NCBI GenBank assembly: GCA_945876035.1
Contig: CAMCMU010000012.1
Location: 1-64,000 of the forward strand
Origin: Schlesneria paludicola DSM 18645
GTDB lineage: Bacteria; Planctomycetota; Planctomycetia; Planctomycetales; Planctomycetaceae
Direction of reading: 5' to 3'
DNA length: 64,000 nucleotides
In this document: positions 36,909-41,945 of the stretch, piece after piece
Layout of the letters: every line of letters starts with the position of its first letter
Numbering within the stretch: position 1 is the stretch's first letter
Program-made: the position numbers and the translations under genes
The notes under the pieces: model-generated
Database searches by the model: none
Told to the model about the DNA's origin: nothing
Seen by the model: only the letters and a program-made list of their open reading frames with translations

Positions 36909-39900
36909 TCAGCCCGCACGGCGTTCTTCCGTTGATTCTGCCGACGATCCGGGTGTTCTTAAGGGTAGAAAGACAGGTTCGATATTTCGCTTTTGGAACA
37001 TTTGGGCATAGTGCAGATGGCTGGTGAAGACGAGTAACTGTTGTCCCTCGCGGGTGAACTCCATCAACGTCTCTACGGCCGCTTCGGACCGCTGCTCGTC
37101 GAAATTGACCGTCACATCGTCCAAAACCATCGGAAGTTCGACGTTGTTGTTGGCGAAGGCCTTGACCATGGCCAAGCGGATTGCCAAAAACATCTGTTCT
37201 CGGGTTCCTCCGCTCAGCTGTTCTGCAGGTCGTGATTCGCCCCCCTCTTCGTCGACGTACAAGTGCTTTCTGCCTAGTGGAGTCCAGAGATGATGGTACT
37301 TGCCCAGCGTCAGCTTCCGTAAAAACGGGATGGCAGCGGCCAGCATCTCCGGCTGATTGGCCTGCTCGAACTGAGTGGCCACATCCTGCAATGCGTCGCT
37401 GGCCAGAGAGGCCGCAAACCAGGACAGCCACGCGTCGCGCAGTGCGGTATCAACCTCCGCCATTTCACGACGCACACGGGTTCCGCTTCGATCGGCTTCG
37501 AGTGACCGGAGTTCCTGCTTGATCGTCCCCAGCTGCTCGAAGGCATTTTGCAAGGCATTTTCAACCTCCCCGAGCTCGCGGGTATATTGGCGAGCCATCC
37601 CCGCAACGTCGTTGGGATTGAAGCGGAGCAGCTCTTCTTCGACGAGGACCAGATCGGGTTCCGATTTGACGAGATGTTCCAACTCGCGGCTGGATTGTTG
37701 CAGCAAAATCTCGACCTGCCGACGACGTTCCATCAATTCCAGCCGTTTGTCCAGTTGAGAACGATGTGAGACACCGGCCAAGGACAAGATCGCATTTCGG
37801 TTCTCTTCGAGGGCAGCGAGTTTTCGTTGCCAGTCCCCGGCCTCGCGACGCGTTTGAGAATGCAGTTTTCGCAGCCGTTTTCGCTCGAAACTCGCCTCGC
37901 GCGCAACGCGTAATTCACGTTCCCACGTATCGACGACATCGAATGGACTCGCCTCATTTGCCTTCGGGCGTTGCATCCGTCGACCTAAGTCTTCCACCTG
38001 CTTACGAAATCGCTCATACCCCAACCGAATGTCCTGAGACTTGTCTCGAGTTGTCAAGTATCGACTGCGTCGACTGCGTGCCGCGATGACCTTCTTCCAA
38101 TGATCGACCGCCAAGTTGACTTCGACGGTTTCGTCCAATCCAAGATGCGCCAGTGTCTGACACCAACTCTTACGGCTGTTAGCCAAATCGCGCTGTTGAA
38201 TTTGCAAGCGGGCGCGGGAGGCGCTCAATCGTCGGCGGATTTGTAGGATCCGAAGATAGTCGTCCTGCGCCCGTCGCAAGTCGGAAGCGCGGCGCGCGGC
38301 GAGCGCCAGAAGTTCCCCATCGTTCAGCTCTGACAAAGTGAAATCTCGGCCCATCCATTCCCGAATGCCGCAGGTTTCTGCATATGCAGCAACATGATCC
38401 AACAGATTTCGGCGTTCGGTTTCGTTGGCCATTCGAAGACTGCGCAGCTCAATCACCTGTTGCTGCAGCGTTTCCTCGTGATGCGACTTGAAGGCCCACG
38501 CGGTGCCGGCGGCGAACAGCGATAGGACGATGAAAATCAGCCCGACGATCCAACCGGTCGTGACGGCCGCATAGATACCGGCGACGAACAACGCCGCCCC
38601 AGCGAGTGTAAACCACGATAAGACACCATAGATCCAATCGGGCAATCCTTGACGAAGTTGAAGTCGTTCGAGTTGCTGGTCAATCGTGGTCGTACGGTAA
38701 TGCAATTCACCGGCTTCAGAATGCCAGCGACTGAGATCCGTCAATTGGTCAAGTCGCTTGGCGGCGACATCGACAGACGATTCCAGCTCTGCGGAGGAAA
38801 CTCCGTGATCCTGCAGTTCTGTCTTGAGGACCAGTTCCCGATCGCGGCAGGTCCCGTTGGCCCTTTTATAACGCCGTTGCATCCGCTGAGTCTTGGCCAG
38901 AACCGAGTGGTACTCCCGCGCCGCCTCGACGAAGGTGGCGTTGGCTTCCGGAGAATCATTCACGGCATCAAGACGCGTCAGCGACCAGTGGGGTCCAAGA
39001 CTGGCAAGGTGCTCGATTAGTTCGCTTTCTTGGACGCAGGCCAACTGTTCCAGGTGGGATATCTGCGGCTCAAAATCCTTGGTCATGACGCGTTGTTCGG
39101 CCAGCATCTGGACCGCGCCCGAAAATCGCCGAATTTCGGGATCGATTCGGATTCCGGCGATTTTTTGGCTGATCCGTGAGACGTCGTCGAGCAAGCCATC
39201 ACGTGATTTCGTGGCCGTGTCAACATCCAGATCCAGCCGCTGCAACCGCAGCACACCATCCGCGGGAAAAGCGCTGAAATCCGGCAGTTGCTGCAATTCA
39301 AAGCGGCACTCGCGCGATCGATTCCACGGGGGATGAATCTTTTCGAAGTAGCTCAGGCTCCGCAGATTCGCTTGTGATTGACTCTGCCGGACCCGATGCT
39401 TTTCGATTCGCTCATCCAACTCGCGCCTCTTCCCCAGCAATTCGCGGTATCGATCCCGTTGACGCGTGGTCGTTGCCGCTTGGCGTGTCAGTTCTTCGTG
39501 CCGTTTCAGCAGTTCAGGAATCACACAGCCGTCACTGGCAGAACCGATCAATCGCTCCAAGTGATGATCCACGCGATCGGGAAGTTCCATCAACAATCGG
39601 CCCTGAGGGCCGAGAGTCATGCCGTATAGATGTGCGGCAACTTGATCGGCAGTCAACGTCGCGAATTGTTGAAGCTCGGGTAAGCCGACGGCAAACACCG
39701 ATTCAAACAACTTTTCGTCTGTGGCCGACAACAGGTCCTCCATGAAGGCCACCGTCGATTGACCGGCGGGAATTCCTGCAACAGAGAGAATGCCCGGGTC
39801 GTCGCCGTAGGCCGTCCGTTGGATTTCGTACTCACCGCCCCGATGTTCCACACGAAGAAGTCCAGACTGGACTTCTCGCCGCGGCTTGTTTTTGGGGGGA

Positions 39901-40073
39901 TTCAGGAAATCTCCGGCAGAAAATCCGTAAAGAACGCCACGAATGAAACGCAGGAGCGTGGTTTTGCCAGCCTCATTCGGGCCGTAAAAGACGGTCAGCC
40001 CCGATCGATGCAGCGGCTGTTTGAAGTCTTGCCAGACTCCGAACCGATCAATCTCGATCCCGGTAATCCGCAT
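36909..40073 (-). CDS. YhaN-like ATPase (Rad50/SbcC type)
   Basis: About 1054 residues from ATG 40073 (the frame continues four codons to a TTG). N-terminal Walker A FYGPNEAGKTTLLRF is intact, and the ABC-type signature LSGGTREQMFLAIRL, Walker B/D-loop VLDDVTVNFDEQR and H-loop FTSHLHY lie near the end. Between them are long coiled coils broken by two membrane helices in the middle (about 480-530), as in YhaN and unlike cytosolic SbcC. It is expected to hold DNA ends or act in repair together with the YhaO-like partner encoded 33 bases upstream. All ATPase motifs look functional, in contrast to that partner. Confidence 0.88.
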   Translation of the reverse strand: MRITGIEIDRFGVWQDFKQPLHRSGLTVFYGPNEAGKTTLLRFIRGVLYGFSAGDFLNPPKNKPRREVQSGLLRVEHRGGEYEIQRTAYGDDPGILSVAGIPAGQSTVAFMEDLLSATDEKLFESVFAVGLPELQQFATLTADQVAAHLYGMTLGPQGRLLMELPDRVDHHLERLIGSASDGCVIPELLKRHEELTRQAATTTRQRDRYRELLGKRRELDERIEKHRVRQSQSQANLRSLSYFEKIHPPWNRSRECRFELQQLPDFSAFPADGVLRLQRLDLDVDTATKSRDGLLDDVSRISQKIAGIRIDPEIRRFSGAVQMLAEQRVMTKDFEPQISHLEQLACVQESELIEHLASLGPHWSLTRLDAVNDSPEANATFVEAAREYHSVLAKTQRMQRRYKRANGTCRDRELVLKTELQDHGVSSAELESSVDVAAKRLDQLTDLSRWHSEAGELHYRTTTIDQQLERLQLRQGLPDWIYGVLSWFTLAGAALFVAGIYAAVTTGWIVGLIFIVLSLFAAGTAWAFKSHHEETLQQQVIELRSLRMANETERRNLLDHVAAYAETCGIREWMGRDFTLSELNDGELLALAARRASDLRRAQDDYLRILQIRRRLSASRARLQIQQRDLANSRKSWCQTLAHLGLDETVEVNLAVDHWKKVIAARSRRSRYLTTRDKSQDIRLGYERFRKQVEDLGRRMQRPKANEASPFDVVDTWERELRVAREASFERKRLRKLHSQTRREAGDWQRKLAALEENRNAILSLAGVSHRSQLDKRLELMERRRQVEILLQQSSRELEHLVKSEPDLVLVEEELLRFNPNDVAGMARQYTRELGEVENALQNAFEQLGTIKQELRSLEADRSGTRVRREMAEVDTALRDAWLSWFAASLASDALQDVATQFEQANQPEMLAAAIPFLRKLTLGKYHHLWTPLGRKHLYVDEEGGESRPAEQLSGGTREQMFLAIRLAMVKAFANNNVELPMVLDDVTVNFDEQRSEAAVETLMEFTREGQQLLVFTSHLHYAQMFQKRNIEPVFLPLRTPGSSAESTEERRAG

Positions 40074-40106: not shown

Positions 40107-41363
40107 TCATTGACGACTCATCGACGTGAACCAGTCCCAACCGAGTTTTTGTGCCTGTGCCGCAACGGCCGCGGGATCAACCGATTCTGACCACGCCTCC
40201 CACCGACCGGTCTTGAGTGTATTTGCGACCCGACCCTCGGCCATCCATTTTGTCATCGCCGACCTCACGACCGGTGTACGACGGCCGACGGCCAGTAAAT
40301 ATTCCGTCAATAGTTCACGTTGTCCAGACTCGATCAGAGACAGATCCTGATCTAAAGCGCGAACGCGGTGAACGTATCGCAAACCGGATGGCCGATCGGT
40401 CAACTGGGAAACCGTTAATGCCAGTTCGCTGACGGACAGGCCTGCCTCCCAACCGTTTGTTTTTCCGTGGGTTCGATCGAGATGCCAGTCGATGAAGCGG
40501 ACTAATTCCCCAGGCAGATCCGATAAGCGTTCGACGGCGGCCAACATCCGCTCCAAGAGATCGTCACGACTTCCCGTCCCATCGATTGTCAACGTGAGAC
40601 TTTCCCAACGGACGACGGCCAAGGGAACCAGCGTGTGTTTCACCCGACGCCGCCCATCGACCTCGAGCAACGTTGCGCCCCTCAGACCCGATTCCTCGAA
40701 CGACATCCCCTGCGGACCGTCTTGCGAGTTGATCACGCCGTCGGTCAATGGAAGTGCACCTGTCGCGTCGCCAGCGGAGCATGCCAACCAGTCCAATGCC
40801 GCGAATCGTGCCGCCGAAATGCTACGTCCTGATGAGCGTTGCGGTAATAACAGACCCACGACAAACGGACGATCCGCGGGATTGATCGCTTTTGCCTCAA
40901 ACAAGTCGTCCAGTTCCTGAGGGTCAATCGAAGTGTCAGCCGTCAGGGGAAGCAGTGTGACCAGTAAACGACCCCGATTTGTCAGATCAATGGGAGGCTC
41001 GTCCGGATGGATCAGGACCGTGACATTGTTCGGCATCACGGGGAGTTCTTCCCACGCCGCCGCGGGGTCGAGATGACCCGGTGTCACAAAAACAGGAATC
41101 TTGCGTTCCTGCAAACGCTCAAAACCGTTCCGCAACGAAACCTCTGCGGACAGACTCGCCACGGATCCATCGAAGCTGTTGCCGGTAATCAGCAGAGCAT
41201 CGACGTCGCGTTCGATCGCGAGACTGACAAGCCGATCAAACGCAACAAACGTCGCCGTCTCCACAATTTCTTGAATGCCGTCTTGCAGCGGAGCGACAAA
41301 CTCCAAAGGACAATCTAATCGCAGATTGGCCGCGTGTAATAGGCGAAGTGGTTTGATGGCCAT
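40107..41363 (-). CDS. YhaO-like metallophosphoesterase with lost catalytic residues
   Basis: 418 residues, with the layout of the YhaO/SbcD/Mre11 nuclease: phosphoesterase fold, then a C-terminal capping region. The conserved positions are recognisable but substituted: motif I LLHAANLRLD has N13 and R15 where HAADLHLD has Asp and His; motif II TGNSFDG has N62 for Asp; motif III PGHLDP has H97-L98 for Asn-His; and the late GHxH is replaced near LDWLACSAGDATG. I checked the codons of the first three. The frame is intact and is 33 bases ahead of the YhaN-like gene in the same operon, so it seems selected as a non-catalytic subunit. It may instead keep DNA-binding or partner-binding only. Confidence 0.85.
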   Translation of the reverse strand: MAIKPLRLLHAANLRLDCPLEFVAPLQDGIQEIVETATFVAFDRLVSLAIERDVDALLITGNSFDGSVASLSAEVSLRNGFERLQERKIPVFVTPGHLDPAAAWEELPVMPNNVTVLIHPDEPPIDLTNRGRLLVTLLPLTADTSIDPQELDDLFEAKAINPADRPFVVGLLLPQRSSGRSISAARFAALDWLACSAGDATGALPLTDGVINSQDGPQGMSFEESGLRGATLLEVDGRRRVKHTLVPLAVVRWESLTLTIDGTGSRDDLLERMLAAVERLSDLPGELVRFIDWHLDRTHGKTNGWEAGLSVSELALTVSQLTDRPSGLRYVHRVRALDQDLSLIESGQRELLTEYLLAVGRRTPVVRSAMTKWMAEGRVANTLKTGRWEAWSESVDPAAVAAQAQKLGWDWFTSMSRQ

Positions 41364-41585: not shown

Positions 41586-41945
41586 ATGAAATCAAAACCT
41601 GTGACCGTTAATCGAGCTTTAGTGGGGGCCATCGGAGGCGGGTTGCTTCTGATGGCCGGCCTGCTTTGGGCATTGGGTTTGGAGGGGAGCCAAGACGCGT
41701 GGCGTGGTGCGTGCATGAAGGTGGGAATCGTGATGTGCGCGTTGTGGCTCGCGCTTCCGTCCATGACAAGTCAGCACGAACTCGGCCGCATTTCGGCCGG
41801 TACGCTCGGAGCCGGTTTGGCCGTTGCCGTTTTGGTGGCCAGGACAAAAATTTCACTGAGCGTCCTGGTTCCGGCAGTGCTGAGCGTGGCCTATTTAATG
41901 CGAGTCTTGGGACCGTCGCAACAGAATCGTCCACCTCGACCATAG
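41586..41945 (+). CDS. Small membrane protein
   Basis: 119 residues with three or four membrane helices (about 10-30, 42-60, 68-86 and 90-106) and short charged ends. Family not recognised. Divergent from the YhaO/YhaN operon. A plausible ribosome-binding site is not clear. Confidence 0.55.
   Translation: MKSKPVTVNRALVGAIGGGLLLMAGLLWALGLEGSQDAWRGACMKVGIVMCALWLALPSMTSQHELGRISAGTLGAGLAVAVLVARTKISLSVLVPAVLSVAYLMRVLGPSQQNRPPRP

Follow-up and report, generated by a model that had tools for sequence, protein, structure and literature searches.

A conserved Mre11-type pseudo-nuclease paired with a Rad50-like ATPase bearing a predicted membrane hairpin in Planctomycetia

What might a bacterium gain from a YhaO/Mre11-type protein with no metal ligands, kept beside a YhaN/Rad50-type ATPase whose motifs are in place? 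The question is raised by two genes in the 64,000-nucleotide stretch of DNA from Schlesneria paludicola DSM 18645 analyzed here (the window), which comes from a 4.7 Mb assembly (G000). The first, at 40107..41363 on the minus strand, had been described in an initial annotation, made from the sequence alone, as an intact frame, and it is open and encodes 418 amino acids. The second, at 36909..40073 (−), encodes an ATPase of 1054 amino acids; its ATG at 40073 lies 33 bp past the stop codon of the first gene on the same strand, and this tandem is kept across loci. A limited literature search turned up no work on the function of YhaO/YhaN and none describing an inactive Mre11 in bacteria. The component families are known; the novel element is the loss of the nuclease from an Mre11-Rad50-like complex across a whole class.

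Fold and active site of the nuclease subunit

The AlphaFold2 model of the 418-residue protein (pLDDT 82.8, pTM 0.77; input alignment of 21 relatives) features a calcineurin-like fold with an Mre11 cap domain, the nuclease and cap spanning residues 2-340 approximately, followed by C-terminal helices at 346-417. Mre11/SbcD chains ranked at the top of a Foldseek search with this model (best 4o43, E 1.9e-12). VIA-align matched residues 2-340, covering both domains, to E. coli SbcD 4m0v (Z 20.3, rmsd 4.9, 283 residues), against Z 13-15 for other phosphoesterases. A PDB sequence search with the single protein yielded nothing useful, but the family profile matched P. furiosus Mre11 (1ii7) from sequence alone (E 1.3e-5), and hhalign aligned it to intact YhaO with a probability of 99.9% (E 4.6e-37, 299 columns).

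Curated domain models recognize the protein poorly. Metallophos (PF00149) scores 16.9 bits, below its gathering cut-off of 21.5, and at E 0.01 it matches 4 of 21 proteins of the window type against 16 of 16 intact paralogues. The SbcD model TIGR00619 gives 25.7 bits, under its curated cut-off of 77.65; an intact paralogue falls under that cut-off as well (61 bits), so this comparison is not specific to ligand loss. Two pseudo-YhaO proteins give weak matches (best E 0.008) to PF04042, the model for the eukaryotic DNA polymerase B-subunit, which probably reflects parallel decay of the same fold. These B-subunits are inactivated, non-catalytic calcineurin-like phosphoesterases (PMC4996933). They partner a polymerase rather than a Rad50-like ATPase and belong to another lineage, and they offer a parallel and a precedent, not a relative.

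All eight metal-binding and catalytic positions are replaced in the window protein (N13, R15, N62, H97, L98, L173, A197 and D199). In P. furiosus Mre11, the first metal is bound by D8, H10, D49 and H208 and the second by D49, N84, H173 and H206. Intact YhaO paralogues read D,H / D / N,H / H / H,H, keeping 8/8 positions in 36/36 sequences. In the alignment to these 36 paralogues, N13 and R15 stand at the Asp and His of motif I (A12-N13-L14-R15 for intact ADIH; 41319..41330, −), N62 at the Asp of motif II (G61-N62-S63-F64-D65 for GDLFD; 41169..41183, −), and H97 and L98 at the Asn and His of motif III (G96-H97-L98-D99 for GNHD; 41067..41078, −). L173 aligns with the motif IV His, and A197 and D199 with the HxH of motif V. 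For motifs I-III, multiple alignment and hhalign give one register, and the profile match to 1ii7 places the GN position opposite GD49 and PGxxD opposite GNHD (motifs II-III). Motifs IV-V fall in weaker regions of the model (pLDDT 58-69), where individual columns are less certain.

The replacements at 13, 15, 62, 97 and 98, first read from the letters of the gene, are therefore upheld by comparison with the paralogues, as is the missing GHxH, with A197 and D199 aligned at its HxH in the weaker part of the model. The two-metal site (D,H / D / N / H / HxH) with its catalytic His is absent. No substitute Asp or His ligands were found elsewhere in the chain: since His10 and His332 are the only well-conserved histidines among orthologues, the three missing His ligands have not simply moved. 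D17, D65 and D99 are invariant within the genus. The losses also extend well beyond this gene. Neither metal site is present in any of 47 window-type proteins, which keep on average 0.53 of the eight positions, and this, set against the 36 complete paralogues, excludes chance. Whether every YhaN-linked member shares the losses thus has a divided answer, yes for the window type and no for the intact paralogues. Among the 79 pseudo copies tabulated, ligands are lost in all and a complete second metal site is found in none.

In Mre11, H85 is indispensable for nuclease activity (PMC4996933); its counterpart in the window protein is L98. Nuclease activity is accordingly expected to be absent, as far as sequence can tell, and the assignment as a pseudo-nuclease is well supported. 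"DNA repair exonuclease" would be a wrong name for these pseudo-YhaO proteins.

The partner ATPase and its predicted membrane hairpin

The ATPase matches AAA_27 (PF13514) at 50.7 bits against a cut-off of 22 (E 2.2e-13). Walker A (GPNEAGKT), signature (LSGGTREQ), Walker B (VLDD) and the switch His are intact, in agreement with the initial annotation, and are also kept in the orthologues, with the DD form of Walker B seen in intact YhaN. The annotation's membrane helices correspond to a predicted transmembrane hairpin at about residues 482-527 (38493..38630, −), an assignment based on hydropathy and a model of moderate confidence (pLDDT 78, pTM 0.37). The model places a helix (479-501), a loop (502-506) and a second helix (507-567) at the tip of long coiled coils, and Kyte-Doolittle hydropathy peaks mid-chain at 1.99 (residues 497-515). 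The second hydrophobic segment is weaker than in relatives. This apex is where Rad50 carries its zinc hook; a central CxxC was sought in the orthologues and in related YhaN, and none was found.

Peak hydropathy across the ATPases is clearly bimodal. Full-length ATPases paired with a pseudo-nuclease have predicted mid-chain transmembrane segments, with two exceptions (L095 and L100); no such ATPase with a soluble-type intact YhaO as its partner has them. The two exceptions (in G342 and G318, respectively) accompany a third, more divergent pseudo-YhaO; their ATPase lacks the hairpin, has a DE Walker B (e.g. LDEALADSDE) and may be a derived soluble offshoot.

The window pair resembles intact YhaO-YhaN, as found elsewhere in the window genome (L031), on Sphingobium plasmid pTK1 (L202) and on a Natrinema plasmid (L203), in gene order, in its Mre11 fold and in an AAA_27 ATPase with DD in Walker B. 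The difference lies in the eight metal and catalytic positions, all kept in the intact pairs and all lost in the window type. The soluble intact lineage has no hairpin, unlike the window ATPase, although some intact pairs (L203, L171-L181) do. With SbcCD and Mre11-Rad50 the window pair has in common the nuclease-plus-cap fold, the Rad50-like head motifs and the long coiled coils; it lacks their metal site, catalytic His and zinc hook (no central CxxC), and carries a transmembrane hairpin in the hook position. On the conjugative plasmid pTK1, the intact pair sits between a DNA methyltransferase and an ATP-dependent endonuclease, a setting that looks like defence or plasmid maintenance. For the window proteins, PADLOC returned no defence-model match to the nuclease subunit and only low-scoring ATPase matches to its partner (best mad3, 45.6 bits).

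Conservation and history of the loss

Orthologues of the pseudo-nuclease are present in 14/14 other genomes of the genus, at 49-71% identity. In the class-wide sample, 100 of 124 Planctomycetaceae genomes contain a match (E <= 1e-68) stronger than any intact YhaO gives, and in most of the family the gene lies directly upstream of the same ATPase. A profile search of genome contigs with a narrow alignment reached only 12 Schlesneria-like loci. Five genomes of the family have no match; of these, two clearly keep the ATPase and one keeps it in part. For pairs with dS below 1, dN/dS is 0.046-0.116 for the pseudo-nuclease and 0.020-0.058 for the ATPase, the nuclease subunit evolving faster than its partner. 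Taken together, the gene comparisons show an ancient, co-directional and adjacent pair under strong purifying selection. The suggestion that a non-nuclease YhaO is retained with YhaN therefore holds, on the strength of orthologues, dN/dS and the tandem arrangement, and the planctomycete relatives have the same losses, which are not those of one degenerate copy. The observation is broader than first described, being family- and class-wide rather than that of a single gene; the intact soluble pair, its absence from many relatives, the single origin and a one-metal-site stage are further additions.

In three Planctomycetaceae loci (L093 in G021, L094 in G017 and L190 in G027), the pseudo-nuclease is barely recognizable by sequence beside a well-conserved ATPase, which suggests that the main function lies with the ATPase and that the scaffold is only loosely constrained. 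The pair stays together while its flanking genes vary from genome to genome; conserved neighbours were sought around it as a clue to function, and none was found, nor any DNA-repair context. Upstream of the pair in the window and in divergent orientation to it, 41586-41945 (+) encodes a predicted protein of 119 amino acids that is small and very hydrophobic, and no conserved neighbour family was found at the equivalent position in relatives.

The order of events was read from a 72-ATPase tree that made no use of nuclease sequences, a short search with SH-aLRT support only; an earlier tree under a richer model, likewise a short search with SH-aLRT only, agrees. The partners of the class-wide pseudo-nucleases form one clade of 40 rows (SH-aLRT 100), and the ligand state changes only twice, in this clade and in L189. 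The latter (G206:C55:4000-9308) is an independent, single-residue change outside the class, in which a YhaO beside a hairpin ATPase has only its catalytic His (Mre11 H85) turned to Ala. Hairpin ATPases accompany an intact nuclease in other planctomycete classes and on a haloarchaeal plasmid, so the hairpin is older than the loss, and it is not a mark of a dead nuclease. The tree maps the class-wide inactivation to a single branch within Planctomycetia, where the membrane hairpin was already in place.

Members of this clade from other families still have all four first-site ligands in 11/32 copies, with the second site complete in 0/32 and GHxH changed to a GGxH-like form in 26/32. In window-type Planctomycetaceae, the four first-site ligands are complete in 0/47; most have Asn for Asp at both Asp positions, and the His between them has become Arg or Gln. 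The simplest reading of these sequences is a stepwise loss, with the second metal site and catalytic His going first and the first metal site later.

The window genome holds a separate, intact soluble pair (L031, G000:C42), and intact YhaO is present in 56/130 Planctomycetaceae genomes. The trees place the two ATPases in separate old lineages and reject a recent duplication of the intact pair as the origin of the pseudo pair. Searches for SbcD found nothing at E <= 1e-8 in seven single-contig genomes (G015, G018, G105, G126, G162, G291 and G436) and nothing above the curated cut-off in any of 24 genomes tested. In the loci that were read, each weaker SbcD match is either the pseudo copy or a phosphoesterase with no ATPase gene beside it; absence of an intact pair is thus bounded by the sensitivity of the SbcD search, with some of the weak matches read. 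Within these bounds, the inactive protein is the only ATPase-linked protein of Mre11 type found in several complete genomes, and by its distribution the active pair is apparently the dispensable one in the family. Three Planctomycetaceae loci (L149 in G698, L184 in G710 and L150 in G687) hold an extra pair of intact YhaO and hairpin YhaN, related to the pairs of other classes and possibly acquired by transfer.

A probable non-cutting, membrane-fixed complex and its possible roles

These features are best explained by a membrane-anchored YhaO-YhaN complex of Mre11-Rad50 type whose nuclease subunit has turned pseudo-enzyme. The pseudo-YhaO dimer would bridge two YhaN heads as a scaffold that does not cut, and may help them to hold DNA or another long polymer; the complex would then be an ATP-dependent clamp anchored in the cytoplasmic membrane. 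The former active-site pocket, in which Asp/Asp and His have given way to Asn/Asn with Arg or Gln, may still bind a phosphate in the absence of metal. Contact between YhaO and YhaN, dimerization and DNA binding are assumed here by analogy, and the predicted hairpin supports a membrane link. We give this explanation as a whole, an ATP-driven clamp or tether at the membrane with the pseudo-nuclease as scaffold, a probability of roughly 0.5. Its parts differ in strength. That the pair is a conserved, non-cutting, membrane-anchored complex is very probable, and it is probably useful without cutting DNA, since the cutting site was lost and yet the complex is kept under strong selection in most genomes examined. 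ATP-dependent tethering or sensing of DNA as its job is a more tentative proposal. As the ancestral complex was a nuclease, DNA would be the most likely substrate of the clamp. Charge does not bear on this point: the pseudo-YhaO is acidic (pI 5.1), but its net charge is no different from that of intact YhaO, which is acidic too, and the idea that added basic charge might point to DNA binding was discarded.

The main rival is a membrane role without DNA, in which the hairpin ATPase would act on the envelope, for example by remodelling membrane or protein complexes, and the Mre11 fold would be only a dimerization platform. An ancestral hairpin, a lost nuclease, a surface that gained no basic charge, neighbours without DNA-repair context and the tolerance of very divergent pseudo-YhaO would all fit such a role. 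However, the ATPase remains in the AAA_27/Rad50-like family, and ATPases of its hairpin type have intact nuclease partners in other classes, as they do on an archaeal plasmid, so DNA is the likely ancestral substrate, and we regard this alternative as unlikely, though worth keeping in view. Some hydrolase activity might instead persist in the protein, based on a rearranged site or one with a single metal, as the four first-site ligands in 11/32 copies from other families and the invariant D17, D65 and D99 might hint; but no metal site is left in 47/47 window-type proteins, the essential H85 has become L98, and His10 and His332 are the only well-conserved histidines, which makes residual activity quite improbable.

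Another possibility is a regulatory decoy: in a cell with both pairs, the pseudo pair would control the intact YhaO-YhaN or enter mixed complexes with it. The window genome and many relatives do have both pairs. Many genomes, however, lack the intact pair, including complete ones that keep the pseudo pair, and the two ATPases come from separate old lineages; as a general role the decoy is largely refuted and carries very little probability. The last reading, that the gene is decaying or that alignment or assembly has produced an artefact, draws on nothing but the Metallophos score below its cut-off. Identical losses in tens of genera, open frames, dN/dS of about 0.1, a single clade on the ATPase tree and the profile-profile E of 4.6e-37 all speak against it, and by these gene-level comparisons it is already refuted, its probability being practically nil.

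The preferred reading, the membrane-anchored clamp with a pseudo-nuclease scaffold, suggests a history for the class, which we put forward with less than even confidence. In Planctomycetia, a Mre11-Rad50 machine may have undergone a single, stepwise conversion to a DNA tether that is ATP-driven, fixed in the membrane and permanently unable to cut. This tether would be near-core in Planctomycetaceae, where nuclease-active versions would be dispensable, and would form the sole Mre11-type complex in several lineages. In model organisms, what Mre11 does independently of its nuclease activity, such as end bridging, head dimerization and signalling, is difficult to disentangle from cutting. Evolution has pulled the two apart here, since a large part of one bacterial class retains the complex but not the active site. 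The pair thus provides a natural system in which to ask what a non-cutting Mre11-Rad50-like machine does, and why it would be placed in the membrane.
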